A DNA stretch of 64,000 nt from Arabidopsis thaliana (lineage: Eukaryota; Streptophyta; Magnoliopsida; Brassicales; Brassicaceae), in contig NC_003076.8 of the NCBI RefSeq assembly GCF_000001735.4, forward strand, positions 17,921,835-17,985,834, read 5' to 3'. The position numbers and the translations under genes were made by a program. Positions within the stretch are counted from its first letter, which is position 1; every line of letters starts with the position of its first letter. Below, in pieces: positions 27,554-63,772 of this stretch. The notes beneath the pieces are model-generated. The model had not been told where the DNA came from, did no database searches, and was given only the letters and a program-made list of their open reading frames with translations.

Positions 27554-27872
27554 ATGGCAAAGAATTTAGGATTTGTGTTCTTGGTTCTTGTGGTTCTTTT
27601 GGTGCCATGCTCCATCAACTATGGTCTTGTTTCTGCACAACCACAAGAGTTACTCCCACAAATCGGTTAGAGCTGGTTCTAATTATATATATTTATCTAA
27701 ATTTCTCATTTCGCATTTTTCTATAGTTTATACATATGTTATTTAATTAAAAATAGTTTGATCTTAGCTTGAAATATCCAAAACATAAATTCCAGAAAAA
27801 TGTTAAAAATAAAACCCAGGGTGCTGAATCTAACTTTTGGCTCAGTTTTGGTTTGATTCTTGTTTTTTTTGG

Positions 27873-27904
<32 letters not shown>

Positions 27905-28199
27905 AAATAAAACCAATTTGATTCTTTTTTCCTCTCTGTTTAGTCTTTAGAATTTGGTTTGGTTTATTTAAACCAGATTAGACACCCTTTTATTGACTAG
28001 ATATAATAAGTTTTAGGTTGTCAAGCTAATTTCAATTAATACATGATTCTTAATTTATTTAATTACGATTTAAAAATCAGAATGGAGAAGAATGATGATC
28101 ACGGTACGATCATCAAGAAGCCAAATAGGTAGGCAGAAAAGAGCGTCGCCTTCTCCATCATCACCACCTTCGTTGTTGTCGCAAGCACCGGGGCTTTGA
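27554..28199 (+). CDS. PROSCOOP-like precursor with proline/serine tail
   Basis: Two exons (27554-27665 and 28081-28199, phase-1 intron) encode 76 residues. Exon 1 is a signal peptide (MAKNLGFVFLVLVVLLVPCS) plus a short linker ending QELLPQI. Exon 2 begins EWRRMM and continues ITVRSSRSQIGRQKR, which carries the SxS core of SCOOP peptides (S-R-S, preceded by VRS as in SCOOP12). A tail SPSPSSPPSLLSQAPGL follows. It is the first gene of the cluster. Family knowledge suggests a secreted precursor cleaved to a short peptide sensed by MIK2, but activity of this variant is inference. Confidence 0.75.
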
Positions 28200-28377
28200 G
28201 GAACACCATTTCTTGATGAAAAGTTGAAAACGAATAGAATTTACTTAAATATCGGTTTTTGGAATCATTGATAAGCTATGCATACAATTTACTTAAATAT
28301 CTATTTTGTTCAATATATATATATGATGAAGTTGTTTATTTGACAAAAAAAAATAATGATTGTCAAGGTTGGTTGGG

Positions 28378-28410
<33 letters not shown>

Positions 28411-29585
28411 AGTATAGACCTACAGTCAAATTTAAATATTAATTAGATTGATTTTTCCATCTTTTATTAATGATCTAACGATATTATATATTTATTTCTA
28501 GCATGTATGATATATTACTATGGATGGTCTATGTTGGACAACTCTTCCGCCAACACACAAATCATTACGTACCTTGCACCACAGTGAAATTCATTACACA
28601 TGACATAAGTACATAACATACATAGCCACAATGGATGAATTACCTACAACAAGCTTAACCTCCAATAAATTTTGCATCTATCATCTAAAAATTGCATTCT
28701 CTCAATAAACCCTTGAGACCAATGGGCTTCTTCTGTACTTGCCGTTTAGCTTGACGTTAACTTTTTCGTTAACTTTGGAAGTCCCTTTGCCATTAAGCCA
28801 AAGCTTTAAAATTTCTACACTAGATCTTAGGTTTGAGTTTTTGATAATGCACCTTATCGAAAGAACTATCCGTCGTGGTATCATGTATTAAAGTAAAGAT
28901 GTCCATCGTCGATATAATGTAGATAAGAATCATTAGTTGGAGATCCAATAGCTGAGAGGAGAGTTGCACGTTGTGGAAGTTGTTCATAGAATCGTTCATC
29001 ACAATCGTATGTGTAACGTTTACATGTAGTTAGATTCGATCAGTTGAGCAAATATCTCTGATGATTATGTAACAAATGGTAAAAACATAAAAGAAGCATC
29101 ATTGAACTATACAGACAGATTAAAAGTAAATATAATATCTAAATACAGGAATACCATATATTAAAAAAAAACGTTGCATCTAAATTGTTTTGAATTTTAC
29201 ATGTAATTCTTTAAGACACATTTTGAAAATACAACAAGCATAAAAATCTTCATAAGTTAACTCAAATTCTGGTCAAATACATATAGAAAATAATATAAAC
29301 CTGAATAAAAGAAAAATATTGTAAACTATAAAATAATTGCTTGTAGCTCACTGGTACTCGATTAGTTTAAATAACACATGATTTTGACTTCTAAAAGCCG
29401 TGTGTAAATTTTCGTCGTTGAATTTTCAACAATTTTTTGTCGAATGCCATCACCCGGTTTTGGGATATTCGAAATCACCATGAGGGTTAAAAATTTAGTG
29501 GGCTTGGGATGTCGGCTGCTTGTAAACTTTCTTTCATTTTTTGTTTTTTTTTCAATAAAATCCTTCAGAACTAAAATACAAAGAA
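28200..29585. other. Spacer with no recognised gene
   Basis: A poly-T run lies at 28381-28402. On the minus strand an open frame of 60 codons (28702-28884) contains KVNEKVNVKLNGKYRRSP, but there is no signal peptide or known family, so I do not call it. Confidence 0.4.
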
Positions 29586-29634
29586 AGATCACTATAAAGT
29601 CGTTGATCAAAAAAAAAAAAAGATCACTATAAAG
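29586..29634 (+). repeat. Tail-only micro-insertion with 14-bp target duplication
   Basis: AGATCACTATAAAG at 29586-29599 and 29621-29634 flanks the 21-nt insert TCGTTGATC plus A12. The insert ends TTGATC-poly(A), close to the TTGACC-poly(A) insert at 47617, which suggests the same source family. Confidence 0.65.
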
Positions 29635-29760
29635 CAAGAGGGTAAAGTATTAAAAATGATTGGCAGAGATTTCATCAGTTTGCTTTTTGGCTTTTTACGT
29701 GTCTTCATAGCTTATTGGAATTTAAAAGATTAAAAGGAAAGAAAAAATTCTGAGAGAGAG

Positions 29761-31028
29761 ATGGGAATGAGTGGTTCTTCAGGTTTAGTTCATGTGCTCA
29801 TGCTTCTTCTTCTTCTCAGCATCCTCTTTCACCATACCGAATCTACTTTGCCCTCTGATAGTGAACAACTCTCAATAACTGGTTAGTGTTTCATCAGTTT
29901 CAACAAACACACACATACATACATGAATACTGAACATAGAATAGCTGAGGATACACACATATACAGATCCATGTATGTTATGTAAATAATTAATTTCTAT
30001 GTTTTAATTGTTTGATAGATGTACTCTACACATTTGAATTTCAAAAACTATATTCATGAGTTCCAGATAAAGGAAATTGACAGAGTTCATGAAATATTCT
30101 AAATTACAAAAAGAGAAGTCTCATGAATGACATAATAGACTTCTTCAATTGTACAAATACATTGGGTTTGTCGATATTATTTCATCTTTATATAATTTGA
30201 TCATTATCTTAAAGTCCATAAAACACTTTCTACTAGATGACCAAAACGACCTATTCTGTTAATCTATAAAAAAGCCGAGACATATTTTAATTACATAGAA
30301 AAATAATTTATTATTATTATAAAATAACTTATAATTTTTCAAATATAAAATTTAATTAACATTAATTTTATTATTAATATCCATGAATGTATATCTGGCC
30401 ATTTGAAATTGAAGTCAGTAAACGTTTTTGTGTCAACAATTAGGTAAAAGAAAATGTAAAAGTTTAGATCTTACAAAACATATACTTAGCTTATAGTATT
30501 TATCTAGATTTTGATAAATGAACTCGGGTTAAAAAAAGACATATATTTTGTTGATCCATAAAATATAATTACAACCAATCAATATTATTGTGACTTTTTG
30601 TTTTTGTTCTTTTGACAGCTATAATGTGTGATCTATAAAACCATCCGGTCTATAAAACCATCCGGTCTATAAAATTTGACTGTATATCAATAATGTTATA
30701 TCTGTCTACCTAAATAAAGAATAAATATCTTTGTTAGTTTCACAAAAAGAAAGAATAAATATCTTTAAGACTAAAATGAAGGGAGGAGAATGATGGCGAA
30801 TTATAAGCCCAATACAGCAGTAGAAACACCACCATCAAGAAGTAGACGAGGTGGTGGTGGTCAGAATACGGTACTCACAATTCATTACTTTAAAATAAAT
30901 CAATAATTGATCACCTCCTTAATTTAATAATTATGCACTTTGCTTCTAATATATATTAAATTTGTCTAGTTTACGTATTCGTTATCAAATATTAATGAAT
31001 TTATATCATCTTGTAGGGAGCAGATTGA
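29761..31028 (+). CDS. PROSCOOP precursor, second SCOOP exon decayed
   Basis: Exon 1 (29761-29881) encodes a signal peptide (LVHVLMLLLLLSILFHHTES). Exon 2 (30782-30870) encodes GRRMMANYKPNTAVETPP then SRSRRGGGGQN, a good SCOOP core. Exon 2 is 89 nt instead of a multiple of three (two extra bases before the donor), so splicing to the exon at 31017 puts that exon out of frame and ends at 31026-31028 after about 73 residues. The third exon still looks like a SCOOP exon (RLMS, YKPNGD, SSGHGGGH) but also has an in-frame TGA before its core. So one SCOOP is intact and one is lost. Confidence 0.65.
30632..30678 (+). repeat. Short tandem repeat, 18-bp unit
   Basis: The unit CTATAAAACCATCCGGT is repeated twice, with a partial third copy (CTATAAAA). 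It lies inside the first intron of the gene starting at 29761. It is possibly polymorphic. Confidence 0.6.
30716..30766 (+). repeat. Micro-insertion with 17-bp target duplication
   Basis: AAAGAATAAATATCTTT occurs at 30716-30732 and 30750-30766 around the 17-nt insert GTTAGTTTCACAAAAAG. It lies only 15 bp upstream of SCOOP exon 2, within the intron. Confidence 0.6.
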
Positions 31029-31155
31029 TGAGTATAATATATAAGCCAAACGGAGACATATATAATATCGGAAGCAGAGTATATATATCACCTTGAAGCA
31101 GTGGACATGGTGGTGGTCACATTCATCAACATTACCTTCCTTAGGTTTTGGCCAG
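31017..31155 (+). pseudogene. Vestigial SCOOP exon
   Basis: After a TTGTAG acceptor, the codons in the ancestral frame read SRLMSIIYKPNGDIY, and further on, past a TGA, SSGHGGGHIHQH. This matches the exon 3 pattern of PROSCOOP10 (GRKLMSIYRPNGDIF...SGHGGGR). It is a host gene relic and part of the gene starting at 29761. Confidence 0.65.
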
Positions 31156-31252
31156 TATACAAAGTTGTGTAATAATTCACCAAGCATAATTTAAATGTGA
31201 ATGTATAATTTGCAATTTATGTGATTCCATGTAAGGATTTTAAAATTTTCAA

Positions 31253-31347
31253 AATTTGTTAACAAATGTTTGTGCAATATAGTGTTTTTCTTTCCTTACA
31301 AAAGATATTTTAATAAATTTGTTAACAAATGTTTGTGCAATATAGTC
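31253..31347 (+). repeat. Direct repeat of 32 bp
   Basis: A 32-bp sequence that begins AAATTTGTTAACAAATG and ends GTGCAATATAGT occurs at about 31253-31285 and again at 31315-31347. The 30-bp spacer is unrelated. It lies about 250 bp upstream of the next peptide gene. Confidence 0.65.
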
Positions 31348-31590
31348 ACGAGAAAAGTCATGTTTTGCTTAGTTTGTCTTCGTTTCATTGTGTCATTGCT
31401 GAAACTTTATCCATACGCGTTTGTTAATGTCTTTTTTTTTGACTAAATGAACAACCGAATAGCCGAGAAAAGTCACATTTTGTAAATGCATGTTTTTTTT
31501 CCTTTTCGGCTTTAAATGTGATTTCGTGAATTTAAAACCATTCACATGGATTAAGAGGATTTAGCAAAATTAACAACGAGAGGAAGAGAG

Positions 31591-32553
31591 ATGGCAAATA
31601 ATTTAGGACTTGTGATTTTGCTTCTAGTAATTGTGCTGGTCTCATGCTCTAAGTCTAGCGACTGTGCTCTTGCGTCTCCACAAAAGTCACGTCCATCATC
31701 AGGTTAGTCTTGACACATATGCGAAGGATTTTCATAAATGGAACATAATCGATGTTTTCTTCTCTTGGTTTCAGTAAAATTTTTGGAAGATCGAAAAAAA
31801 CTAATTAGTTGTTTTCATCTTACTTTTCGGATTGCTTTAGTCAATCAAAATGTTTAAACTGGTTACTTACTTGTTCTTTGAAACATATGATAAGTGTTTT
31901 TTTTGTTTTGTTAAAGTAACATATGATAAGTATTTATGCTAATTTTCAAAAATATAAAGAAACAATTACACTTTATATAATAATTGCCTCTAAAACATCT
32001 TGTAAGAACACGATGCAAAATATTTTTGTTAGCTCGATCATGAACTTATTTTAAAGTCCTCTCTCTAGATTATTAAATAATATATATCGTGGATTTTGTT
32101 AATCGAGATAAAATTTAAATCATCTTTGGTTTTGGATTTGATTTCTTAATTTTGATAATTCAAATGAAGCTTTACAATTTTTGCAAAAATCATTATTTGA
32201 TAATGTATTCGTAAGAAAATATGATTGATCGTCCCACAGAGAGCCAATACTAGATATGTGTATTAATAAAAATTTAACTTATTTAATACTTCCAACTTTT
32301 TATTTTGACACCAGTGTTTTGACATTTAACCACTATAATACCTATTAGTTTTGTTAATAGTTTTAAAAATTTAATTCATGGAAAAAAAAAACTGAATTTA
32401 AGTTATTTTTTATTACTATATGTAGAGTGGAGAAGGAAGTTAATACCAGTACGGTCATCAAGAAGTCCACGAAGTCCTTCATTTGCGCCAAAAAAACCGC
32501 CGCCACCGCCACCTTCACCGCCTCTGTCACCATCATCACCACCATCAAATTAA
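31591..32553 (+). CDS. PROSCOOP-like precursor with long polyproline tail
   Basis: Two exons (31591-31702, 32426-32553) encode 79 residues. The signal peptide is MANNLGLVILLLVIVLVSCS. Exon 2 reads EWRRKLIPVRSSRSPRSPSF, then APKKPPPPPPSPPLSPSSPPSN. PVRSSRS is strikingly close to the SCOOP12 core PVRSSQS. The Ser-Pro and polyproline tail would be a target for prolyl hydroxylation and arabinosylation, as in extensins. Its signal peptide and gene structure match the neighbour at 27554. Confidence 0.75.
31882..31931 (-). repeat. Tail-only micro-insertion with 14-bp target duplication
   Basis: AACATATGATAAGT at 31882-31895 and 31918-31931 flanks a 22-nt T-rich insert (minus-strand reading ACTTTAACAAAAC then A-rich). 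It lies in the intron of the gene starting at 31591. Confidence 0.6.
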
Positions 32554-36569: not shown

Positions 36570-37595
36570 ATGACAAAGAAGGGTCCTTTGAATTTGAGAC
36601 TTTTGCTCTTGCTTCTAGTGGTTCTTTTGCCCTCATGCTCTAATTGTGCTCTTACGTCTTCACAAGAATTACGCCCATCATCAGGTTAGTCTTGACTCTT
36701 GAGACCTATCCTAATATTCTTAAATCGAGTGCTAGCAAAAAGTTTTTTTTAAAAAAGGTGCAAATATGATCCTTCCGGAGTACCAATATAGGGTGACTAT
36801 TTTGCTAGTTTTAGGATATTAATTATTTTGTCCATTTTCATAATTTGAGTTTTCGTTAGGTTCATTTTTTTTTGTTTTTGGTTTACTGAAATTAAAAATC
36901 AATGAGATACCAAAACTCATTTGATTAGTCTAGTTGGACATCGTTTCGATTTTGGTTTTGGTAGTTTTAATAATATTTTTACATTTTTTTTTTTTTTTTA
37001 CATTTGTTTTTAGAAAGTTTATTTCTATTGTTTTAGTTTAATTTCATTTTGCATTAGTTAGTAACTGGAAAAAATATTATTCAGTGGGATCTAGCTTTCG
37101 CTATGTGTTTCCGAAATATACTTATAAATAAGATATTTAGAATTTATATATTTAACTTGATTATTTTGTTTTCTGTGTTTTTTTTTTTCTTTTTTTGAAA
37201 GCAAGATATAAATAAATTCATTAGTTTTGATGAAAAAAATAAAATGTTAAAATCTTTTTATTTTATTATGGATTTGTCTTATTATATGGTTTTTGTTTGG
37301 CTCAGTTCAGGTAATATATATTGGACTATGCTCATCCCATTGTGAATTAGATTCAGTAACATTATGCCATATAAATGTTTAATAAGTTAGCCATATATTT
37401 CTCTGAAATTAAAGTAATGATATCTATGAAAAGTGAAAATAATTTTTTTTTTAGTCATTAATTTAACTATAAATTAAATAGAATGGAGAAGAAAGATGAT
37501 AACAGTATGGTCGAAGAGCTCGTATTAGGAGTGCTCCTCCATTGCCGTCCTTTTACCCACCACCGTCAGCAGTTTACATGAAACGACACATATAG
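36570..37595 (+). pseudogene. Frameshifted PROSCOOP-like gene
   Basis: Exon 1 (36570-36684) is an intact signal-peptide exon (LRLLLLLLVVLLPSCSNCAL) ending SSQELRPSS, like its neighbour at 31591. Exon 2 begins at 37482 with EWRRKMITV but then reads WSKSSY and stops at 37526-37528. In another frame the sequence continues RARIRSAPPLPSFYPPPSAV to a stop at 37593-37595, the expected proline-rich tail. A small indel at the SCOOP core therefore destroyed both the SxS motif and the frame. A truncated 53-residue product is possible. Confidence 0.7.
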
Positions 37596-39544: not shown

Positions 39545-40312
39545 TTATGGGCCTTTATCTTTAGGCGATGCAGAGTGAAACGAAGCGATAGGAGGTTTGA
39601 CGATGCCACGGAGAGGTGGAGGGGGAGGAGGAAGAGGAACGCAATCCAAACGCAATTTGTTCCTTTCTAACAATATGTATGTACCACAAATTGTATGATT
39701 AATTTCTTCAAACAATAAATATGATTAAAACTACAACAGAAAACTATGTATAGAGAGTATAAACAAGGTAATTACTTTTAAAAAATACGTAATTAGGGAA
39801 ATGATAATTGCTAGAGCTGCTATTAGAAAGGAAAAAGGACAAAAATAAATGTAACAAATTAACAATGTAATACATTATTATTTAAAAAATAATAAAATAA
39901 ATATTCGGTTGGTAGTCTAGTACATTGATATAATACTATTTAACACTATCAATACTAATACAATAAATCAAACTTAGATAAAAGATAAATAATTATATTC
40001 GATAAAATAGATGTCCACATAAAAATAACGTGATACCATGGAAAAACATTATGTGTTCTGCAACCTTAGATGTTGAGAATAAAACCAAACTAAAACTCCA
40101 AACCAAATTATAACAGTATTACTATATGTGGATGTGGAATGTAGCTCGTTTTTAATAGACACACAAACTCAATACAAAAGTAAGAGAGGTAGTGTTAAAT
40201 AGTTACGTTGGAGACGTTTGGCCTGGGCGACTCCAACTTGAGATAAGATAAACAAGAGCAGAATAAACAAAGACAGAAGAAGATGACCTAAATTTGATGT
40301 CTTTGTAGCCAT
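39545..40312 (-). CDS. Small secreted proline-rich peptide precursor
   Basis: Two minus-strand exons (40312-40207, 39666-39545; phase-1 intron) encode 75 residues. Exon 1, MATKTSNLGHLLLSLFILLL then FILSQVGVAQAKRLQ, is a signal peptide nearly identical to that of the gene at 42605. Exon 2 reads RNKLRLDCVPLPPPPPPLRG then IVKPPIASFHSASPKDKGP. The SxS element is only SAS near the end, so SCOOP identity is uncertain; a sister proline-rich peptide family is the alternative. Its promoter shares 'TGGAAATGT' and 'TAGGCCCAG' with the paralogue. Confidence 0.65.
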
Positions 40313-42604: not shown

Positions 42605-43367
42605 ATGGCTACAAAGACATCAAATTTCGTTTCTCTTCGCGTATCTTTGTTTATTCTTCTCTTATTTATCTCATCTCAAGTTGCTATCGCTGACGCCAAA
42701 CATCTCCAACGTAAGTGTTTACACACTAACACACATAAGGCCTCTTGGCTTTTTCTAACACTCGCATGAACATAAGCTTGGTTACTGTTTAGCGATTTAA
42801 CAATATACATAAGTTTGGCTTTGTATTCAATGTTCATTGATGAAATTTTTATTATTGTATGAAACATAAAATGAAAGTTTATATCTTATTATGTCTCAAC
42901 GTCAATTTGTTTTTTGAAATATCAAATTGTTCTCTCTCTCTCTATATATATATATATAGATAATAAATAGTCTGCGCTCTATCATGAATTAAATATTGTT
43001 TAGAATATCCAACATTAATTTTGAATCTAAAATATTAATATTCATAATTTTTAATTTTTACCTATGTCAAACAAAGCATATTTAAAAACTAAAATTTATA
43101 ATTGTAATTTGTAAATCAATAGAATTAAGAAGGAAGTTGCAGATAGTACGACGATCAAGAAGTCAAAGAGGTCGTCAATACAATCCACCGACGCTGCGTG
43201 TGCCGCCGCCACCACCACCGCCCCTGCCCCAGATGCCGAGTGCAGCCACACCTCCCCCAATGCCGCAGTTGTCACCACTGCAGCCGAAAATGCATGTATC
43301 ATCACTGCAGCCACAAATGCTCTATCCACCTCCTTCGTTGCCGTATGCTTCATCGCCGACGGTATGA
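42605..43367 (+). CDS. Long PROSCOOP-like precursor, proline/methionine-rich
   Basis: Two exons (42605-42710, 43123-43367) encode 116 residues, long for the family. The signal peptide is MATKTSNFVSLRVSLFILLL FISSQVAIADAKH. Exon 2 begins LRRKLQIVRRSRSQRGRQ, giving the SxS core S-R-S in the usual place after an (E/L)(W/R)RRK-type start. A long tail rich in Pro, Met and Gln follows (VPPPPPPPLPQMPS, LSPLQPKM, LQPQMLYPPPSLPY). It is the divergent partner of the gene at 40312. The tail is too long for a simple SCOOP; it may be spacer or a second cell-wall-type product. Confidence 0.7.
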
Positions 43368-44219: not shown

Positions 44220-44539
44220 TAGTTAATATATATATTTTTGATCTGAGAGATGGAGAAGAGCTTTTCACTGGTAGAAGTAGAAGATGAACTAGTCATGATG
44301 ACACATAGATGAAGGGAAAATATAGAGCAGAGAAAGATGAACGAAGAAGAAAGAGAGAGGAGAGGATCGATTGCTTTTAGCTTGGAGGCTAGGTTAAGCG
44401 TATGATACCATGTAGAAAGGTAAACTCCGTGACCTTTATTATATAATCTCATGAGTATATAAGGTTACAAGAAAATGTTCTAGATCGTATCTAGGGTAAA
44501 TCTAAAAGAAAATTTACATTTTTGATATATACTCTAACA
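44220..44539 (-). mobile_element. Fossil Ty1/copia piece: LTR, primer-binding site, start of gag
   Basis: Read on the minus strand, 44539-44411 is a short LTR of about 129 bp beginning TGTTAGAG and ending TTTCTACA. It is followed at once by a TGGTATCA primer-binding site (initiator tRNA-Met type) and a short gag beginning (MTSSSSTSTSEKLFSIS). The rest of the element is absent, so this is a broken fragment of a Copia element. With only one LTR present, age cannot be estimated from LTR divergence. Confidence 0.7.
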
Positions 44540-45509
44540 ATCATAAACAGTTGATCATAATCATGTGCATGACTATGAGTTTGATGTATGATGATGATGA
44601 GATGTGATGAGTATATGATAATATATTCAGGTTGTGATGATGAATGTAAGAAGATTAAATGATGCCAGGATGATCGATAGTTTGGATGTATATATGCATG
44701 TTGCATCTATACTATATGATATGGTATAAGTTTGGTTGTATGTTGTTAATCATTGTGGACGGATTTTGATTCATGTGTGTACAAGTAAGTAAAGATTGTT
44801 GGTGTGATTTATGGATATGGGGTCAGGGTAAGCTAGATATGAACAATTGTGATATGTTGTAACACCATGAGTTTATAAATGGTCCCCAAAGAAGAATGCA
44901 CTGATAAAGATTTGAGAGCTGATTCTCTAAATATATAGTGAATTTGTGTGCTAAAGCTGAGAGTAGAGTTCCTGGCATTGTCAAAGCATCTCACATAGCA
45001 TTAGGATAACGTCTGCAAATAAGCAATGATTGATGGCCCGATAGTACGTGCTACATTGTCCTTTTCTTGGTGTCAGATATACTAGATAAGATATTGGGTT
45101 TGTTGTCCAAGTCCCCGGAGAATAAAAAGTAATTAAAGCGTACCATTCATTAGCGTGTTGGTCGAACCAAAACCGAGAATAATTTCTAATCATATCAAAT
45201 ATCTAACCAAATATCTTTAATAATATAAAATAGAAAAGTTTAAGAATATTTTGGAAAGCTTACACCTCTGAAAAGTCAACTTGTAATTCGTCGTTAAACT
45301 TTAAACTATAAGAATAAGAGGAAAATGTCAATATTTCACATAGGTGATGGAGAAAATAATAATATGTTTTTATTGGGAAAATTTCATAAAACAATCTTCA
45401 AGCTAGCAACCACTTACACTATAAATTTTTAAAGTTTTAAACTTTCACAATAAACCATCAAAGTAATAATTTGATTTTTATGTGATTTTCCCTTTATTTG
45501 TGTGTACTA
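44540..45509. other. Spacer with no recognised gene
   Basis: Contains TG/ATG-rich simple sequence at 44560-44650 (runs of GATGATGATGAG). No conserved frame. Confidence 0.4.
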
Positions 45510-46350: not shown

Positions 46351-46440
46351 ATGTTGGAAGATGGGAACAAAGTGTTATTCAAAATTACGTTATGTTGTCG
46401 TTCTGGTTTTGCTGCTTTTCGTCTTCCCTTGCAGCCTTAG
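46351..46440 (+). promoter_or_regulatory. Overlapping upstream ATG in a PROSCOOP transcript
   Basis: ATGTTGGAAG starts 10 nt before the main ATG (46361) in another frame and stays open for 29 codons to a TAG inside the signal-peptide exon. If the transcript starts upstream, scanning ribosomes would meet it first and main-frame translation would be reduced. Confidence 0.5.
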
Positions 46441-47517
46441 CCAATCGGCTCCTTCCTCAGTTACCGGTTAGTGTTTCAACACACTATGTCATATAAATAC
46501 ATACGTTTTTTTGTTCAAACAATATTGTATAAATGAATTAAAGGATCTGTTTATCAAACAGAACATACAAACGAAAACTGATCGCCTGAAAGAATTAATT
46601 ATCAACTGGCCAAACGAAACGGAAGAATTCACTAAATATCAAAAAGCATCAAGAGAACTGAAGAATGTATATAATTATAGTATGCATGTAATTCATTAAT
46701 ATTTGTTGTTTAGATTTACATTTTTATATTATAACAGTATGTTTTCGTTAACCACATTTTGTGGATTTTTCATGTTTGTGTTTATAGTAAAATATATTTG
46801 ATAAAAACGAAATTTTGTATATTCCAACCAAATGGAAAAAAATAGTTTGACGTATAAATGCAAATACATATTCAATAGATTGACTTTTGAAAACCAAAAA
46901 TCATATGTACGTGCTACTTTTTTTTTACGTTATAACACTATATACAATAGACAAAGTTAATCAAACTGGTATGAGCAGAAGTTCACTAAAATTTATAATA
47001 AATCGCATATGGATTAAACCTTAATGCAATTTATATACTTTTTGAAACAAATTATAGTTATAAAGTTAAAATCGTTGCAGCAGATGAATATGTTGCTACG
47101 TACCTTGTCCATTAATTGTATTCAATCACACATATATATCCTCAATTAAAAAGCAATAATATATATGACATTGTAGGCAGGAGATTGATGGGAATATATA
47201 TGCCGAATGGGGGAATAATAGCAGGATCTTCACCTAGTGGACAAGCACCAAACATAAATAATAATTACCACGGTAAAAGTCTATTTATTTTCTATACAAA
47301 ATTTCCACTTTTTCGAAATTTTCAAAACATTTCTAACCCTATTACATATGCTCTTATATAAAGTGTTGCAAACTTTGTTGATCAATTTGATATATTTTTA
47401 TATTCATAGTCAGATATAATATAATTATGAGATGTAGGGAGGAGATTGATGATCAGTGAAGCAAGACCTTCAAAAAGCAAAAAAGGTGGTGGTCGCGAGC
47501 CTGAAAGTCCGGGCTGA
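46361..47517 (+). CDS. PROSCOOP precursor with two SCOOP exons
   Basis: Three exons (46361-46466, 47177-47272, 47438-47517), both introns phase 1, encode about 93 residues. The signal peptide is SKLRYVVVLVLLLFVFPCSL. Exon 2 is GRRLMGIYMPNGG then IIAGSSPSGQAPNINNNYH. Exon 3 is GRRLMISEARPSKSKKGGGR then EPESPG. The SxS cores are S-P-S and S-K-S. Exon 2 is symmetric (96 nt, phase 1-1), so it could be skipped without frame loss. The promoter (46230-46330) is nearly the same as that of the next gene at 48875. Confidence 0.8.
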
Positions 47518-48303: not shown

Positions 48304-48422
48304 TTACGGGCCTTTTCCTTTAAACGATTTAGAAGGAGGCATATAGGATTTGGGAGGTCGAGGGCGAGGTGGAGGAGGAGGAGGAGGAGGAAGAGGAACG
48401 TAATCCAAGCGCAATTTGTTCC
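48304..48422 (-). pseudogene. Orphan second exon of the proline-rich peptide family
   Basis: After a GTTAACAG acceptor (minus strand), 39 codons are open: NKLRLDYVPLPPPPPPPPRP, then RPPKSYMPPSKSFKGKGP. It is clearly homologous to exon 2 of the gene at 39545-40312 (NKLRLDCVPLPPPPPPLRG). The 3' flank also matches. No signal-peptide exon lies within reach upstream, because the next plus-strand gene's promoter starts there. It is probably a remnant. SKS gives a possible SxS core. Confidence 0.65.
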
Positions 48423-48874: not shown

Positions 48875-49420
48875 ATGGGGAAGAAGTGTTCTTCAAAATT
48901 TCGTCAAATGCTTGTTTTGGTTCTGCTGCTTATCGTCTTCACTTGCCTTAGCGTAACGGCTCCATTATCAGTTACCGGTTTGTTTTACTTTTACAATACA
49001 CATAACATAAAATTACGTAGATATACTTAATTACATTTTTTCAACAATATTTTACAAATGAAATTAAAAGTTTGGTTCATACAAACTAAAACTCACCTGG
49101 ACGAATTCAATATCAACCAGCAAAACCTACTAGTTTTAAAGTAAAAGCACGCGGAATAGAAGACGAGGGACAAGAACGAACACACTCCCTAAATAGCAAA
49201 AAATCTTCAAGAAGCGTGGAGAAAACTCACCATTCAGAAGGTATAGACATATTATATGCACGTAAATAGATTGCTGTCTTTTTATTGATTAAATGTTTAT
49301 ATAATATAATTATTAAATGTAGGGAGGAGATTGAGCAATGTTTTTCCAAATGCGGGCATAAGAGCAGGACCTTCAAAAAGTGGACAGGGTGGTGGTCGCA
49401 TTCCCGTAGCCGCCTCCTAG
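48875..49420 (+). CDS. PROSCOOP precursor with a possible cassette exon
   Basis: Main form: exons 48875-48977 and 49323-49420, 66 residues. The signal peptide is SKFRQMLVLVLLLIVFTCLS. The peptide exon is GRRLSNVFPNAGIRAGPSKSthen GQGGGRIPVAAS, a canonical SCOOP with S-K-S and the GQGGGR tail. Between them, 49160-49240 is an 81-nt open stretch bounded by TAG| and |GTATAG. It is phase-1 symmetric and encodes EDEGQERTHSLNSKKSSRSV then EKTHHSE. KSSRS is itself SCOOP-like, so an alternative two-peptide form is possible. Confidence 0.78.
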
Positions 49421-52040: not shown

Positions 52041-52948
52041 ATGGAAGAGAAGAGTGCTTCACAATTGGGACTTGTGGTGTTTCTTCTATTGTTTCTTTTG
52101 GTCCCAACCCATACGGAGTCTTCCCTGCCTTCTCAACAAGAATCACTCCCAGTGATCGGTTAGTGTTTCTCTCACATATTCATATATACATAAACAAACC
52201 AATATCCGAAAAAATGATTATCTAATCTAGAACTAGAAAGGAAAAAAAAAACTATTGAAGTAGGTCTTTTTGGTTAACTATCCATGTTTTCTAGAAGAAA
52301 AATCCAAACTAATTTCAGGAGTACATACAATTACCAATTGAATTCGAAGTGGTGAAATTAATATGGCTTCTATTAAAATTACTAAATGGGTTTTTACTTT
52401 TTACGATTAAAAAAATACTATTCGTAAATTGAAAGCTATGGAAGAGTTATGCCAATTTTAAAGCCTTTTTAACAATTAATTATATTATAAAAATTATATA
52501 AGTTTGAAAATACAGAAACTGAAATTTTGATGCTAAAATATTCGTAAACTTTTAAAGCCAGACCAAAGTATTTGTACATTTCTTTAAAAAAGAAACTGCA
52601 GCCACATATATAGGATGTATTTTCTTTCCTTTGCTTGCATATTAGCATTTTTTGAGTCTTATGAAGCTTAGAACATAAAAAAAGTATTTAGATTTTTGTG
52701 AAGTTATAGTTTTATACCATTTTAAAATATAATGTTTTTTATCAAGAGTCATCACTGTATTTTATAAACTAATTTATTTTTTTGACTGCAACACTTATTT
52801 TCATTGATTAGACACATAAATATATAACTTTATTTTTATTTTTGCAGGATCGTCAAGGAGGTTGATGAGTACCTATAAGACCAACAGTAACATAGATTTT
52901 GAGGGATCAATCAGTGGACAAGCCGGTGGTGGTCAACAAAATCCCTAG
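52041..52948 (+). CDS. PROSCOOP precursor
   Basis: Two exons (52041-52158, 52848-52948, phase-1 intron) encode 72 residues. The signal peptide is [20 protein letters not shown], with linker [13 protein letters not shown]. The peptide exon is [18 protein letters not shown] then [15 protein letters not shown]. The core S-I-S is followed by GQAGGG, typical of the family. The exon begins GSSRRLM, a variant of the usual GRRLM. Confidence 0.8.
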
Positions 52949-55262: not shown

Positions 55263-55388
55263 ACTATTATTGTGCTTTTAAAAGATATATATTATCCTTA
55301 AAATATTTTGAGCCTATAAAACTCCAAAGGCTTCAGTCAATACGGAGATAGAGAAAGCAAAACTAGTAGTAAACCAAGAGAGAGAGAA

Positions 55389-56645
55389 ATGGAAAATATT
55401 TTTTTTTCAAAATTGACTCAAGTGTTCATTGTGGCTCTTCTCTGTATCTTCATATATCGTACCGAATCAGCTATGTCTTCTCATCGTGAACAACTTTCAC
55501 TTACCGGTTAGTATGATATCACAAATATATAATTATCATTAACTTGATCAGTTGTTTTGACATATTTAATCTGGTTCGTGTGGACTATTACAAGGAAAAC
55601 AAGTCCCCATGTTCAAATGGGTCAATTATCTATATCCTGAATAGGAAAAAAAAAAGAAAAAAAAGAAGTGCTTATCGTATTCAATTTTCTATATTTTGCT
55701 TAATAAACTTTCTCGCTAGTTTTGCTATTCCAAAATCTACAATTTTATAGTATATGTTAGTTGTGTAGTAAAAAATATTTGACTAAAGGAGTCAACACCA
55801 CATCGAATCTCATGAAAATGTTTCGAATAGAAAATTTGTCTTATTAACATTTCAATTTATGCCATTGCAGAAAATATATAATATATATAAAGAAAAAAAA
55901 TCATGTTTTTTCGTCGCTGTTTTTATTCTTACAATATATGTCTATCGTATATATTATAAATACGATTTAAATACTGCTAATTTGGTTTTTAGGAAATAAC
56001 AAAATTTAATATTGAAAATATTTAATATAAATTAACACCGTGTTTATGGCCTTAATGAGAAAGAAAGAGAAGGATATCCGCATATATCGTATTCACGTTT
56101 CTATGTTTTTTTTTGTTCAAATAAATATTTCCTCTAGATATTTTTTTCCTTAAAATCTACAATATTTTATTTTCAAAATATAAATACAGGGAGGAGAATG
56201 ATGGCGAACATTCCGTATCCGTATGGTGGCATATATGTGAAACCACCACCCTTAAAAAGTAAAGATAGTAATCAGAAAGGTACTCATATAGTAGTATAGT
56301 ATTCATATCTTCTTAATATATTCAGCTATCGATCTCGTTTTATATTTGCAAATTATCCACAGTTTTCTTGTCAAATAATTATTCACTTCTTCTCATCAAG
56401 ATTTGATGTAGAAATATTTACAGGTTAGGACACTTTATTTAAGATTTTAATCATTTATAATACTTTCTAAAATTGGCACATACCTGATTATTCGTCTATT
56501 ATAAATCGCTAACTTCGATGTATTTTAAATATTATTTATAGGGAAGAGAGGGGAGACTTATTATAAGCCAAATAGTGAAATAGGCACTGGACCATCACAT
56601 AGTGGACATGGTGGTAGCAGCATTGAACATGTTTCCTCTCCTTAG
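55389..56645 (+). CDS. PROSCOOP precursor with one good and one altered SCOOP
   Basis: Three exons (55389-55506, 56190-56279, 56542-56645), phase-1 introns, encode 103 residues. The signal peptide is LTQVFIVALLCIFIYRTESA. Exon 2 is GRRMMANIPYPYGGIYVKPP then PLKSKDSNQK; the expected SxS is changed to LKS, so this first peptide is probably inactive. Exon 3 is GKRGETYYKPNSEIGTGPSH then SGHGGSSIEHVSSP, with an S-H-S core. The second intron starts GGTACTCA, like that of the gene at 29761. Confidence 0.8.
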
Positions 56646-57455: not shown

Positions 57456-57492
57456 ATAGTCTACAATCAAGAAAACAAAGAGAGAAAAAGAG

Positions 57493-57975
57493 ATGGAAAG
57501 AAAAAAGTTTTCTTCAAAATTTATTCATTTGCTCATTGTGTTTTTGCTTCTTTGTACGTTTCTTTCTCGTACCGAATCTGCTCTTCCTTATCACCATGAA
57601 CTGTTCTTGGGTTAGTATTGTTTTAACAATCATATAACATCCACATATACATCAGATTGTCTAAGTGTTAATTGATGCGAAATAGTCTATTCATGGAACT
57701 TTCAATAGATAGATCATTGACCGGGAAGTGCTTAACTACGATCAGTTGCAACTTCATTTCAAGCTTACCTTTCACTTGTAATAAATACGTATAGGGAGGA
57801 AGCGGATGAATTATTATAAGCCCAACAGTGCCATAGGAACACCATCATCAACTAGTGACCACGCTCCAGGCAGTAATGGTATGTCCCTCCTCTTTACTTA
57901 TTTTCTTATCAACTTTTACCGAAAAAATTATAAAGTACAGATTCTTAAAATTAAAGTATAAAAGAGTGTTTATAA

Positions 57976-58006
<31 letters not shown>

Positions 58007-58347
58007 GTTATGTTTTTTTCTTACATAATTAATTCTCCTAAATTATAATGGTTTAATGGGTGTATGTATGTGTACTAAAGAAAATAGGCTGATAATGGTT
58101 TTCTACTATTAACACTATCTCCTTTTTTTCTTATAAAGCTTCAACGTTTCTTTCCGGCTATTTTCAAATTTTAGACTCCGATTTCATTGCATAATTCGTT
58201 TATAATATTTTGCTGCCTTTTCTCTTTAAAAATTCATAAATATGAATTGTAGGGAGGAAGTTGATGAGTATATATAGACCCAATGGAGACATATTTACAG
58301 GACCATCAGGCAGTGGGCATGGTGGGGGTCGCACTCCAGCCCCCTAG
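57493..58347 (+). CDS. PROSCOOP10: PROSCOOP10 phytocytokine precursor
   Basis: Three exons (57493-57610, 57795-57878, 58253-58347) encode 98 residues. The signal peptide is HLLIVFLLLCTFLSRTESA. Exon 2 is GRKRMNYYKPN then SAIGTPSSTSDHAPGSNG, the SCOOP10#1 peptide. Exon 3 is GRKLMSIYRPN then GDIFTGPSGSGHGGGRTPAP, the SCOOP10#2 peptide. Both match my memory of the published peptides exactly. SCOOP10 is found in the leaf apoplast, and the family signals through the LRR receptor kinase MIK2 with a SERK co-receptor. It is At5g44580 by order. The 84-nt middle exon is phase-1 symmetric. Confidence 0.93.
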
Positions 58348-58996: not shown

Positions 58997-59032
58997 ATAG
59001 TCGCAGTAAAGGAAAGAAAGAAAGAAAAAGAG

Positions 59033-59886
59033 ATGGAAAATAATACTTTTTCTTCAAAATCTATTAATTTGCTCATATTGCTTTTGCTGCTTTGTACCTT
59101 TCTCTGCCAAACCGAATCTGCCCTTCCCTCTCACCAAGAACTTGTAATCACTGGTTAGTGTTTTGACAATTATATAACATCAACATATGTGTATATATAA
59201 GGTTGTCAAGGTGTTAATTGATGGGAAAATTCATGAAATAGTATATTCACATGTATATATATAGGAAGGAGGATGATGAGTTATTATAAGCCTAATACTG
59301 ACATAGGAACACCATCATCAACCAGTGACCGTGGTGGCGGTGGTAATGGTATGTCCCTCCTCTTTTCTTATTTTACAATTTTTATCAACTTTCTTTTTAA
59401 CACTTTTCTACAAAGTACTTATTCATCTAAATAATATGTCGCCGTGTTGAAATTAGATGTTACTCTCTATTAATGTTTGCTGCTTTTTTTATTAGGTAGG
59501 CGATTGATTAATTTACTTTTAAGTCATCATATCGTTCAAATATTTTTGAATCTATTCGTTTTATTTATTTTGCCGACCCTAGATGGTTATGCTTTTTAAA
59601 GCCTCAAATATGTACTAAGGGTGTTTAAGATCCATGATCTCACATTGGTAGATGATTCTCATGCTGTGTAGGGTTTGGTCTTTGGTGTTTGTCTTGGATG
59701 GAGCAAATATTTAGCTGGAAAATAGAAACTATGAATAAAAAAATTGTTCGTTTATATTTTTATTAATTAAAAAAATGAATTACAGATAACTTCAACTTAG
59801 TATAATTTGTAGGGAGAAGACTGATGAGTCAAATGGATGTTGGAGCATCAAGCAGTGGACAAGGTGGTGGTCGCAACCGCCACTAG
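59033..59886 (+). CDS. PROSCOOP11: PROSCOOP11 precursor
   Basis: Three exons (59033-59153, 59265-59348, 59813-59886) encode 92 residues. The signal peptide is NLLILLLLLCTFLCQTESA. Exon 2 is GRRMMSYYKPNTDIGTPSST then SDRGGGGNG. Exon 3 is GRRLMSQMDVGASSSGQGGG then RNRH. The SxS cores are S-T-S (SST-S) and S-S-S. It is very close to PROSCOOP10, with the same intron layout and promoter, and is a recent tandem duplicate about 1.5 kb downstream. Numbering is by position between 10 and 12. Confidence 0.88.
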
Positions 59887-60630
59887 AATAGGTTTCGAGT
59901 ACTGTATTGATGTTTAACTGTATTGTATATGTATTTAATTTTCTATTCCCTGCCATCATAAATCAAGCTTTGGAAAAGTCTCAAACATGTATAATGTCTT
60001 TCGTACACAATGTTTTACGTTCTTTTTTTTTTGTTTTCATTTCAATATAATGATAGAAGTTTTTTTTTTGTGTAGCAGAGATATGTAAAGATAATCAGAT
60101 TGAAACTAGCTAGAGAACCAAAAATATTTAAATGCAAACAAAATTAAAGATTTTATATATGAATTACGTAAGAGGAAACAAAACTAAACTAAAGTAGGAA
60201 GAACATGTTCACTATAGAGTAACTCTTTACAAACTATTTCTTATTGATAACAAACTTGATTTATTCTCACACCACCGCATAAAAAACGAGTATTTTTAAC
60301 ACCGAAAACCATTATCTAACGATATGATAATGTTCAAAAAAACCTTTTGACATCGCTAAATGCTCGTAAAGTAGTCGTTAAATATTCTGTTACGATTATT
60401 TGACAACTAAATATCGTAAACGAAAATCGAGAGTCGCTAAACTTATTAGACTTATTATTAATCGTCTTGTAACGACTAATAATAAATCAGCCACTTTAGA
60501 TAAAGTTTTTTTCATACTGCTATCGTGTCACCAATATAATAGCCTTTTTCTATCTGAAATTATATATTCTACATTAGCTATGTTACGTAATACATATTTG
60601 GAAACTATCGAAATATCTTGTTCTTATTAA
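59887..60630. other. Spacer with no recognised gene
   Basis: AT-rich, with CGTAAA/CGATT words around 60380-60480; an open frame at 60400-60630 has no signal peptide or family. Not called. Confidence 0.4.
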
Positions 60631-60639
60631 AACCTCATC

Positions 60640-61250
60640 CACGATTATCTTAACCGGAGCACTAGCCATAACCATATTCATTTCCTCATCTTTACTCCAT
60701 AATCTAAGTCACTTTAGCAGTAACATAATAGAAATGCCTTCTATCTAGTGATCGGTTTTGACTATCTCAAAAATATTTATATGCAAGAGTTATTTAATAT
60801 TATATATTCACATTTAACCAGAAACAATCTGGGATTCAGATATATGACTTTAAATATATGGGTTTAAATAAGATCAGGAATTATGGATTCAAATATTTGA
60901 CAGCTGTTACACCATGAATGATAAGATTGGATCAGAGCTAGTATCTAAAATCTAGAACTATTTTTCATTAATTACTACTTTGTAGAGAAGAATAGTCAAT
61001 GAGAAACAAAAGGGTTAATATTTTCATACGTTTATCATCTGTTTTAATAAGAACAAGAGCGTCAACTTAGTTCCGGACTCTTGATCCTAGCTTAAAGAGT
61101 TTATTATTATTATAGTTCCACATTCAACCAAAAACACTCTCGGATTCAGATAGGAACAAGAGGGTCAACTTCTTAAAGATTAATGACTAGTGGAGAAATT
61201 ACGAAGTTTGCCTTGTATTTTTCTTTAGTATTTGTTTACTCTCTACCGCC
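60640..61250 (+). repeat. Orphan duplicate of the PROSCOOP12 promoter
   Basis: Blocks match 62157-62745 in order: 'attatcttaaccgga' / 'aactatcttaaccgga', 'taacataatagaa' / 'taacataacagcg', 'tatatgcaagagttatttaa' / 'tatatgcaaggacttattta', 'aagagggtcaactt' and 'tgactagtg(g/a)aga'. A TATA-like TACATAAAT follows at 61277, but no signal peptide. Confidence 0.7.
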
Positions 61251-62150
61251 CTACCGGCGATGCCTCACCATTCGGGTACATAAATGAAATTCTGATATCA
61301 AGAAAAATTGGAATCTATTTTCGAAAAGTCATACTAGCGTTTTCTACCTTTTTAGTTACTTACATTTTTTTTTTTCGTACCTTTTTAGTTACTTACATAA
61401 AATTCCGTTTTAGATGTCTTTTCTTTTTTAATAAAGAAATTTCTTGTATCGTCTCTTTTCTGTGTTTCAGTAATTTATGTACATATACACATGTGCCAAG
61501 TATATCTTATCCAGATAAGCTTCAGATTTTGTAAGACTGGTGACTTTAAATTTTAAAAGAAAACAAAAAAGTCTGTTGACTTCCTTATTGTAATAGAGGT
61601 CAAAGTCTCAAGTTTGACCATTAATGTAAATAATTATCCATTTGGAAATATCTATTTTAGTCCAATAGAAAATTGATTCAGTAAATGATTCTGATAAAAT
61701 GCCCGTATTTCCATGAGGCACTTAATGATTAAATTCTCATAGTGTTTGAACTCCAACTTCAACATAAACAAAGAGAAATCTTCAATGGATTTTGCAGCTG
61801 CATGATTAAGAAATTTTGAATAAGCATTTTGCAAGAAGTAGTCCCTCTTGAAATTTATGAAATGCTATGTACAACCGCATTTCTAATCTATAGCAAAGCC
61901 GGCCAAAACTATATACCATCAACCACATCTCTCTGTTTCTCGATCCATTCGTTTGGCAAAAGCTGCTGGATTCCTTTTGTTTTCGCTCTATTACAGTTAT
62001 TCCTCTAGTCTTTTGTTACATCAAACTCTAAGCTTTCACCCAAATGAATTTGGTCTTGATTTTCCTCTGGATTGGTATTTGTTTGGCAATAAAGTTTCAA
62101 CTCAAACCAAAATACTTATCAAAATATCTTGCAATGTCAAAGATATTTGA
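61251..62150. other. Spacer with no recognised gene
   Basis: Contains a short tandem TACCTTTTTAGTTACTTACAT (twice, about 61347 and 61379). No gene. It separates the orphan promoter from the functional one. Confidence 0.4.
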
Positions 62151-62612
62151 TAAGCTTCATAACTATCTTAACCGGATCACGTGGCATAACCATCTTCGGT
62201 TCCTCAACTTTACCCTTTCATAATCTTTGTCACTTAAGTAGTAACATAACAGCGTTCTTTTGAATGCTTTCTATATAGTGATGTTGTTCATTATTCCCTA
62301 TCCCAAAAAAAAACTTATATGCAAGGACTTATTTAATGTTATATTTACATTTGTTTAGCTATAGTATATTTTTACATTCAACCAAAATAAAAATTCGGAT
62401 CCTGATATATGAACTTCAAAGATAGTGGCTTAAGATCACGAACCTCAGATTCAAATTTGTAAGGAGCTATGAAAATATTAACCTTAGATCGGATCTGAAA
62501 ATCCTGAACTATTTTATGTCACCATACTTAGTAAGAAACTAATGGTCAATTAACAACAAACTAAAAGGATTAATATTTGTATACGTAATTCTTTGTTTTT
62601 ATAAGACAAGAG

Positions 62613-62750
62613 GGTCAACTTGTTAAAGGGTAATGATCAGTGAGTATTATTGACTAGTGAAGAAAACTAAAAAGTCAACTTGGTATTATTAGGTTTTGGT
62701 TTGTTTCATTTTTTCGTGGAACGTTCCCTCCACCTGCATGTACATAAATA
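62613..62750 (+). promoter_or_regulatory. PROSCOOP12 promoter with three W-boxes
   Basis: W-box cores lie at 62613-62618 (GGTCAA), 62650-62655 (TTGACT) and 62673-62678 (AGTCAA). TGGAACGTTCC is at 62716-62726 and the TATA-like ACATAAATAT at 62741-62750. Clustered W-boxes fit induction by WRKY factors in immunity. Confidence 0.55.
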
Positions 62751-62786
62751 TGAGTCTAAACTCGAGAAAAAAATAAAGATCGAGAA

Positions 62787-63471
62787 ATGAGAAATACAAT
62801 TTCCTCAAAAATGGGTCAAGTTCTAATTGTGCTTCTTCTCCTCTGCACCGTCCTTTGCCGTACCGAGTCAGCTCTTCCTTCGGGTCAACATTCAGTCCTA
62901 CTAACCGGTTTGTGATTCCATATATTCATAATATTCATGCACACGTTTGTATATTTATTAGTTGATTGATAAGATCCATGAATCATATGGTCTAATTACA
63001 TGGAATATATATATAGGATGTATTTAGGACTTGTTAAAACATTTTAAAGCTGTATTTGTGCTTATGATAATTAGGTTCTCACATATATAGAAAGTTAGAG
63101 AAAACCTAAACTGATACATGAGTACATGTACCAATCCATTCATTGTTAATTGCGTATCAATTAAAAACCTATGAACTGTATAATAGTTACTTTCATAATA
63201 CTTTTTGTTTGGTATGAAACATATACATATATAAAAATTCGATTTATATGTTTTGTTAATTTCTCAATAGTGTAATGTATATGTGTTAATAAATACGACA
63301 AGTAATCTTATTAATTTACAACGTCTAACTATCTTAAATATAATAAAAAACGAAGGAAGGAGATTGATGGGTTCGGGCGCTTCGGGACCAGTAAGATCAT
63401 CGCAGAGTAGCCAAGCTGGTGGACGTTTTAATGATGCTGATCCTATCGCCATAGATTACGGAAAATATTAA
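62787..63471 (+). CDS. PROSCOOP12: PROSCOOP12 phytocytokine precursor
   Basis: Two exons (62787-62907, 63356-63471) encode 78 residues. The signal peptide is QVLIVLLLLCTVLCRTESA, with linker LPSGQHSVLLT. The peptide exon is GRRLMGSGASG followed by the SCOOP12 peptide PVRSSQSSQAGGR, then FNDADPIAIDYGKY. The match to SCOOP12 (At5g44585) is exact. The peptide triggers calcium influx, ROS and defence gene expression through MIK2 and restrains root growth. The two serines of the S-x-S core are required in published work. The acceptor AACGAAG| lacks a pyrimidine tract but is the only one that keeps the frame. Confidence 0.96.
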
Positions 63472-63718
63472 ATTTCTTTTTGATTTCAGTTTTTCCAAAT
63501 TTAATGATGTTTTAATCGTTTTCTGCTGCTTTTTCATCAGTTTACAGTCAACTGTTACGTGATATTTCCCTTGTTTGAAGTCATGAAATTTCTTGTATCG
63601 TGATCTATATTATATATTTTGTGTTTTTGTTTGTTTTCATTGTTAGAACATATTTATTTCCTTAAAACATGGAAACGTAATCTATATTTGGAAAAACTAA
63701 TGTCATACGATTTTTTAG

Positions 63719-63772
63719 CCAAGGGAACAGAACCATCGATATATGGACAAATTAATGGTGCTCCTCTCTAAT
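63719..63772 (+). pseudogene. Vestigial third SCOOP exon after PROSCOOP12
   Basis: After TTTTTTAG the codons GGAACA GAACCATCG... read GTEPSIYGQINGAPL and stop at a TAA (63770-63772). This aligns with the exon 3 cores of the neighbours (GTGPSHSGHGG; GASSSGQGGG), but the second Ser of SxS is Tyr. It suggests PROSCOOP12 once had two peptide exons. Confidence 0.5.

Follow-up and report, generated by a model that had tools for sequence, protein, structure and literature searches.

The window analysed here, 64,000 nucleotides of Arabidopsis thaliana chromosome 5 (chr5:17,921,835-17,985,834; chr5 17.92-17.99 Mb), carries a tandem array of PROSCOOP genes, which encode the secreted precursors of SCOOP peptides. 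This array is the known Arabidopsis chromosome 5 PROSCOOP cluster. In our judgement it probably grew mainly by duplication of whole genes. In each of them, phase-1 introns, which would descend from one ancestral intron, connect a signal-peptide exon with a single peptide exon or with two. Each peptide exon would be a frame-compatible cassette holding a likely protease site and an SxS ligand (serine, any residue, serine). An exon duplication would have produced a gene with two peptide exons, A and B, before the genes 29761, 55389, PROSCOOP10, and 59033 separated (genes are numbered by the first position of their signal exon); afterwards, B would have decayed in 29761 and the SxS would have been lost from A in 55389. 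Gene 42605 would be of mixed ancestry, with a signal exon of the MATKTSN type (a label coined in this analysis) joined to an EWRR-type peptide exon, presumably through recombination within the intron. The precursors would be secreted and cut by subtilases, and the released peptides would be read by MIK2 with BAK1, the action of the individual genes being presumed from that of their relatives.

We identified the window with the published cluster because of its location, the signal peptides, the SxS peptides, and the identity of two sets of peptides. The SCOOP12 peptide PVRSSQSSQAGGR, encoded in 63356-63471, is the same as the published one, and both native SCOOP10 peptides are encoded in 57795-58347 in their published form. 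The assignment of these genes to SCOOP precursors, proposed earlier from the letters alone (hereafter the sequence-only reading), was thus confirmed. The chromosome 5 cluster was described in 2019 as a 37 kb array of a family whose genes have 2 or 3 exons (PMC6382344). SCOOPs have been called one of the largest plant signalling-peptide families, with 50 PROSCOOPs in print (as cited in PMC11331138). Against these 50, the set modelled here is incomplete, with 13 genes inside the window and 4 elsewhere; the genome searches were made with single proteins, and only their top candidates were scored. Apart from PROSCOOP10 and PROSCOOP12, gene names were assigned from gene order and published lengths.

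A signal-peptide scan followed by exon modelling gave 12 signal-peptide exons on the plus strand. The first begins at 27554 and the last at 62787, and each has its peptide exon or exons behind it (15 main peptide exons in all). The sequence-only reading had counted about a dozen SCOOP-type genes, which agrees with the plus strand; it had overlooked a complete gene on the minus strand (40312-40207 for the signal exon and 39666-39545 for the peptide exon, which contains SAS), an orphan exon, and a relic exon. Hydrophobic cores were present in all 12 plus-strand genes and in the minus-strand gene, as judged without a signal-peptide predictor, and an SxS motif stands in the last coding exon of 13 of the 13 genes, gene 36570 ending two residues past its SKS. 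The best models predict 2 or 3 coding exons with the signal peptide in exon 1. The final stop codon of the array ends at 63471, not at 63772. The predicted exons and related features are as follows.

27554 to 27665 (+): signal exon of gene 27554 (EWRR type; by order probably PROSCOOP1), donor TCG-GTTAGA, cut before GTTAGA, phase 1
28081 to 28199 (+): peptide exon of gene 27554, EWRRMMITVRSSRSQ...
29761 to 29881 (+): signal exon of gene 29761 (by order probably PROSCOOP2)
30782 to 30906 (+): A-type peptide exon of gene 29761, GRRMMANYKPN...SRSRRGGGG, reading into the former intron to a stop
31017 to 31144 (+): relic B exon of gene 29761, acceptor TTGTAG-GG kept, in-frame TGA
31591 to 31702 (+): signal exon of gene 31591 (EWRR type; by order probably PROSCOOP3)
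32426 to 32553 (+): peptide exon of gene 31591, EWRRKLIPVRSSRSP...
36570 to 36684 (+): signal exon of gene 36570 (EWRR type), intact
37482 to 37528 (+): truncated peptide exon of gene 36570, EWRRKMITVWSKSSY and stop, total 53 aa
39545 to 39666 (-): peptide exon of the MATKTSN-type gene 40312, ...SFHSASPKDKGP; acceptor at 39666 or at 39705 (slightly better score), both phase 1
40207 to 40312 (-): signal exon of the same MATKTSN-type gene (probably PROSCOOP4), donor AAC-GTAACT, phase 1
42605 to 42710 (+): signal exon of gene 42605 (probably PROSCOOP5), MATKTSN type
43123 to 43367 (+): peptide exon of gene 42605, EWRR-like, QLRRKLQIVRRSRSQ... and a proline-rich tail
46361 to 46466 (+): signal exon of gene 46361 (probably PROSCOOP6)
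47177 to 47272 (+): peptide exon A of gene 46361, 96 nt, phase 1-1
47438 to 47517 (+): peptide exon B of gene 46361
48304 to 48422 (-): orphan MATKTSN-type peptide exon with acceptor, open frame, and SKS
48875 to 48977 (+): signal exon of gene 48875 (probably PROSCOOP7)
49121 to 49240 (+): probable internal exon of gene 48875, 120 nt, phase 1-1, SRS
49323 to 49420 (+): peptide exon of gene 48875
52041 to 52158 (+): signal exon of gene 52041 (probably PROSCOOP8)
52848 to 52948 (+): peptide exon of gene 52041, GSSRRLM...SIS
55389 to 55506 (+): signal exon of gene 55389 (probably PROSCOOP9)
56190 to 56279 (+): symmetric 90-nt A exon or relic of gene 55389, GRRMMANIPYPYGG...LKSKDSNQK(G), SxS lost
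56542 to 56645 (+): peptide exon B of gene 55389, GKRGETYYKPN...SHS
57493 to 57610 (+): signal exon of PROSCOOP10 (named from the published peptides)
57795 to 57878 (+): peptide exon A of PROSCOOP10, 84 nt, phase 1-1, SCOOP10#1
58253 to 58347 (+): peptide exon B of PROSCOOP10, SCOOP10#2
59033 to 59153 (+): signal exon of gene 59033 (probably PROSCOOP11)
59265 to 59348 (+): peptide exon A of gene 59033, 84 nt, phase 1-1
59813 to 59886 (+): peptide exon B of gene 59033
62787 to 62907 (+): signal exon of PROSCOOP12 (named from the SCOOP12 peptide)
63356 to 63471 (+): peptide exon of PROSCOOP12, GRRLMGSGASGPVRSSQSSQAGGR...

The first 14 PROSCOOP members were given protein sizes of 72-117 aa (PMC6382344), and 12 of our 13 models can fall within this range. 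The modelled lengths are 72 aa for gene 52041, 75 aa for gene 40312, 53 aa for gene 36570, and 116 aa, not 117, for the largest; gene 48875 has 106 aa with its 120-nt exon and 66 aa without it, and enters the range only with that exon. As its 53 aa lie below the published 72 aa, gene 36570 is probably not among the original 14 named genes. The minus-strand gene 40312 is probably PROSCOOP4.

For the intron phases, all frame-keeping GT-AG pairs were listed with no phase presumed (donor at least 69 nt past the ATG, intron at least 60 nt) and scored with approximate splice-site weights. The top-scoring pair was of phase 1 in all 13 genes (12 plus-strand and one minus-strand), as expected from the earlier statement that each signal exon ends in a phase-1 donor, and in 10 of the 13 no frame-keeping pair of another phase was found. 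For the junction from A to B, five genes, one of them with the 29761 relic, offered 18 frame-keeping pairs, all of phase 1. The splice models themselves are predictions from the genomic sequence, and the introns as modelled are of phase 1. Outside the window, four genes were modelled by eye, two of them at chr1 8.10 Mb, one at chr5 14.55 Mb, and one on chr4, and all four have the same phase. Three of three signal exons at chr1 24.35 Mb also have phase-1 donors by eye and were excluded from the counts, which cover genes with modelled peptide exons. It should be noted that a PROSCOOP-like gene, GRRMRSYQTNGEIDAGPSFSGRGGGRIP, with the same phase-1 structure lies at chr4 10.992 Mb (L035 2156-1800, minus strand). 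A scan at two weak genome matches, chr3:910056 and chr5:4636373, found a PROSCOOP gene at neither.

The first of two peptide exons had been given as 84-96 nt and of phase 1-1. This fits genes 46361 (96 nt), 57493 (PROSCOOP10; 84 nt), and 59033 (84 nt), and two further internal exons are likely, also multiples of three and of phase 1-1, one of 90 nt in 55389 (without SxS) and a probable one of 120 nt in 48875. By arithmetic only, skipping exon A would keep the frame in 46361, PROSCOOP10, and 59033 and leave 61, 70, and 64 aa.

The modelled junctions fit the published protein data on two genes. According to a review table, SBT3.5 cuts PROSCOOP12 in TGRRLM / GSGASG, at Met45-Gly46 (PMC13082318), and our phase-1 model of PROSCOOP12 reproduces this numbering. 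The native PROSCOOP10 peptides are SAIGTPSSTSDHAPGSNG (detected 3 times) and GDIFTGPSGSGHGGGRTPAP (detected 38 times), with ten residues between them (PMC9784617). In the PROSCOOP10 model the residues RKLMSIYRPN lie between both peptides and the final Gly of the first peptide is the intron-split codon.

Peptide exons A and B were compared in trees built from 14 exons, each taken together with 20 nt of the preceding intron, and in a second alignment of codons only (112 and 90 columns); neither gene 42605 nor the 120-nt exon of 48875 nor any EWRR-type exon was included. The A exons of 29761, 55389, PROSCOOP10, and 59033 grouped apart from the B exons (Shimodaira-Hasegawa-like approximate likelihood-ratio test, SH-aLRT, 84; ultrafast bootstrap, UFBoot, 69). 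Meanwhile, the signal-exon tree had the form ((29761,55389),((PROSCOOP10,59033),PROSCOOP12)), weak except for PROSCOOP10 with 59033 (UFBoot 98), and joined 46361 with 48875 (UFBoot 98).

These trees and the intron phases bear on a plainer history, which we consider unlikely although it survives best among the alternatives. In it, the array arose by gene-by-gene tandem duplication, the exons were never independent, and the symmetry of the phases simply follows from descent of the introns from a single one of phase 1. Introns of this phase are generally found near signal peptides, in plants with an excess between residues 20 and 40 (PMC1626468), and phase 1 being ordinary in this place, its uniformity is weak evidence for modularity by itself. 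The simplest account of it is descent from a single intron of the kind that is commonest in genes for secreted proteins. The signal-exon tree, with 29761 near 55389 and PROSCOOP10 beside 59033, also agrees with the A-exon flank tree, as gene duplication would have it. Nevertheless, the A/B duplication is itself an exon event, gene 42605 appears to mix two gene types, and the relics show decay exon by exon, all of which count against that history. Exons with histories of their own are supported by the clustering of the four A exons and by the mix of exons of two gene types in 42605.

The two exons of gene 42605 matched different sets of relatives. Over 174 nt, which reach from 50 nt ahead of the ATG to the 18th nucleotide of the intron, its 5' part has 81% identity with gene 40312(-) (E 5e-41). 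The peptide exon matches gene 27554 over 82 nt from 30 nt before the acceptor (71%, E 4e-4) and gene 31591 over 54 nt from 3 nt before the acceptor (72%, E 0.018); these E-values apply to searches among 12 loci. In shuffle tests (1000 shuffles for each pair), the signal exon matched all 4 MATKTSN-type exons (p 0) and none of the 8 SCOOP-type signal exons that were tested out of 12 available (p >=0.17). The peptide exon, with 1000 shuffles each, matched 3 of 3 EWRR exons (p 0, 0, and 0.002), and among the other 13 exons (8 GRR-type and 5 MATKTSN-type) the lowest p were 0.016 and 0.043, the latter for the chr5 14.55 Mb gene. Hidden Markov models (HMMs) built without 42605 agreed with this: the MATKTSN profile recognised the signal exon at E 6e-17, against E 30 for the SCOOP-type profile, and the EWRR-core profile recognised the peptide core (E 9.9e-5), to which the MATKTSN profile gave no match. 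One frame-keeping GT-AG pair would join both exons. As the shuffle and HMM matches differ by exon, exons of two gene types stand joined over a phase-1 intron. Gene 42605 thus looks chimeric, with a MATKTSN-type signal exon, an EWRR-type peptide exon, and the change of ancestry inside the intron.

Some results speak against a chimera. The peptide exon weakly resembles PROSCOOP10 B (p 0.016), and the full-length EWRR profile fails on it (E 47, rank 55). The shortness of the peptide match (82 nt at 71%; 54 nt at 72%), together with this failure, leaves some room for the view that 42605 is not a swap, either because its combination of exons is the ancestral one and it was the EWRR genes that acquired another signal exon later, or because the similarity of the peptides reflects convergence on a short basic SRS motif; the direction of change cannot be polarised within one genome. 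We regard this view as rather improbable. The match to 27554 starts 30 nt inside the intron, ahead of the coding sequence (only 3 nt for 31591), which counts against this view. The signal exons of the EWRR genes look like those of SCOOP-type genes such as 52041 and unlike the MATKTSN ones, and a change of signal exon in the EWRR genes would still be an exon exchange.

The number of exon duplications was examined by approximately unbiased (AU) tests. Five separate duplications were rejected (AU p = 2e-11 and, in a second test, 1e-4), as were separate duplications in PROSCOOP10 and 59033 (p = 0.00045). A single duplication in the common ancestor of PROSCOOP10 and 59033 alone gave p = 0.0465. A history of three separate events (29761, 55389, and the ancestor of PROSCOOP10 and 59033) was rejected both with flanks (p = 0.0072) and with codons only (p = 0.0131). 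The simplest reading would be one old A/B duplication with later loss of B in 29761 and of the SxS in 55389 A, and the repeated addition of peptides that the earlier reading implies is not supported as stated.

Several results do not sit well with this single origin. The alignments are short, most tree nodes are weak, and the branch between A and B has a UFBoot of only 69. In the flank tree, the 46361 A exon falls among the B exons, unsupported. The 90-column codon tree joins 55389 A to 46361 B on a long branch, the position of 55389 A being unstable there. A-B pairing within 29761, 55389, or 46361 singly was not rejected (p 0.06 to 0.17), nor was a group of its own for 46361 A and B with the 48875 peptide exon (AU 0.64 with flanks, 0.30 with codons). 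Gene 46361 is accordingly a possible second duplication event. A repeated, independent exon duplication in each multi-peptide gene is the least probable account, since the AU tests reject it for 29761, 55389, and the PROSCOOP10/59033 ancestor, even if the possible group of 46361 and 48875 would allow at least one extra duplication.

The reading of one old duplication followed by decay draws on the two altered exons. The relic B of 29761 was found by nhmmer at E 1.7e-15 with the B-exon profile built without the relic itself and at 3.5e-16 with the profile of all exons; protein profiles gave only E 0.034 and 0.096. The donor of 29761 that aligns to its relatives' donor is out of phase, relic B carries a stop, and the frame can continue into the intron. 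Loss of a peptide has thus not always been as harmless to the frame as had been suggested, although other donors exist in 29761 that would preserve it. Expressed sequence tags for PROSCOOP2 were given in 2019 (PMC6382344). The 55389 A exon (56190-56279) scored E 2.6e-6 by nhmmer with the all-exon profile built without it, 8.9e-4 with the B profile, and 0.056 with the A profile; against it, the protein profile gave only E 1.9. An open frame of this length occurs in 9% of random draws, and its openness is hence weak evidence of use.

The internal 120-nt exon of gene 48875 is probable; it starts otherwise than with GRR. When the 48875 intron was shuffled 2000 times, some open 1-1 exon appeared in 26% of the shuffles and an equally good one with SxS in 1 (0.05%). 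PROSCOOP7 or SCOOP7 is listed as a two-motif member in two papers (one of them PMC9784617), a figure legend in one of the two names only SCOOP6, 10, and 11 as such, and the 2019 count of two-motif PROSCOOP proteins was three (PMC6382344). A third exon in the common ancestor of 46361 and 48875 was considered and dropped: the BLAST match of the first introns ends at about 46615/49126, the match beyond is weak and short, and 46361 has no matching acceptor. Three-peptide genes, which had been held possible, were not found in the window by a motif scan in all three phases or by HMM and nhmmer scans, and nhmmer window scans found no A exon in PROSCOOP12 or 52041. For the orphan exon 48422-48304 (-), a signal exon was looked for upstream and was not found. 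This exon lies head-to-head with gene 48875, and by eye the stretch between them is transfer RNA (tRNA)-like and short interspersed nuclear element (SINE)-like (ARAGORN: no tRNA).

According to published work, PROSCOOPs are secreted, cleaved by subtilases at RxLx/RxxL, and perceived by MIK2 with BAK1; subtilase processing has been published for PROSCOOP12 and 20. In our models, 14 of the 15 main peptide exons start, near the split codon, with two basic residues followed by L/M at once or one position on, and most peptide exons are likely to hold their own protease site beside the ligand. The strict RxLx/RxxL form stands at the exon start in 9 of 15 by eye, and 55389 B (KRGE) fits neither form. 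The starts GRR(L/M)M or (E)WRRK, once ascribed to all peptide exons, cover 9 of 15 (8 if WRRK is taken strictly), the rest reading QLRRK, GRRLS, GSSRRLM, GKRGE, GRKRM, and GRKLM. A difficulty is that the A-group exons read RRMM, RRMM, RKRM, and RRMM, none of which is a strict subtilase site.

That the phase-1 peptide exon is a truly exchangeable cassette, which in gene 42605 became attached to a signal exon of another gene type, and whose A and B copies drifted to different roles and may depend on each other, is a tentative and on balance doubtful proposal. It is based on the RRMM/RKRM starts of the A group, on 55389 A being without a ligand, and on 55389 B being without an RRLM-like start; the misfit of RRMM to the strict subtilase motif counts slightly against it. 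Only C-terminal peptide copies were active in published assays (PMC9784617), which agrees with a weaker constraint against decay in the A copies. If a ligand exon can be duplicated, lost, and re-attached without frame damage, this would be a concrete route to making and retuning immune peptides, and cassette exchange bears on the question of how one receptor gained dozens of divergent ligands. Gene-level PROSCOOP trees may also mislead: PROSCOOP5, probably gene 42605, clusters with no other sequence in a published analysis.

Outside the array, a subtilase-like gene lies at 16572-19359 (+), about 8 kb upstream (by eye, from translations of open reading frames); we take it to belong to a different subgroup from the PROSCOOP-processing subtilases. 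By eye, a resistance-type gene of the Toll/interleukin-1 receptor, nucleotide-binding site, leucine-rich repeat (TIR-NBS-LRR) class with about ten 72-nt LRR repeats occupies 8642-12393 (-). At 19453-19854 (-), a small open reading frame for a secreted protein, which begins like a signal peptide and includes a proline-rich stretch, KFPLKGWPFPKYPPF, is possibly another peptide precursor. Between genes 42605 and 46361, a strong G-over-C skew (0.35-0.47) was observed at 44250-45000; in the stretch of 44.2-45.0 kb, minus-strand translation by eye revealed no PROSCOOP exon and Rfam gave no match. Scans of the window for tRNA (ARAGORN, bacterial code) and against Rfam (gathering threshold) gave 0 matches each.

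The family, the cluster, the three-exon genes, and exon duplication are already in print. In the parts of the PROSCOOP literature covered by our search, the intron phases, the relics, the symmetric exon of 55389, the orphan exon, the truncated gene 36570, and the mixed ancestry of 42605 were not met. The array shares with the PROSCOOP/SCOOP family of Brassicales and its chromosome 5 cluster (PMC6382344, PMC8448819, PMC7846792) the location, the signal peptide, the SxS motif, the peptide PVRSSQSSQAGGR, the 2-3 exons, and the twelve chromosome 5 genes. The two peptides of PROSCOOP10 have been attributed to a probable 'local duplication of an exon', with a third exon common to PROSCOOP6, 7, 11, and 15, a list that does not name PROSCOOP9 (PMC9784617); here, this duplication would date from before the gene splits, with traces in two further genes, 29761 and 55389. 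Gene 40312(-) resembles the STMP/MATKTSN-type SCOOP precursors (chr1 8.10 Mb, chr5 14.55 Mb) in both exons and in the phase-1 C|GT donor, whereas gene 42605 has their signal exon but an EWRR-type peptide exon. With the extracellular modules known from exon shuffling (PMC1626468), the array has in common symmetric 1-1 exons and an intron of phase 1 behind the signal peptide; in contrast to those modules, the unit here would not be a folded domain but a cassette, about 28 to 40 residues long, that combines a ligand with a likely protease site.

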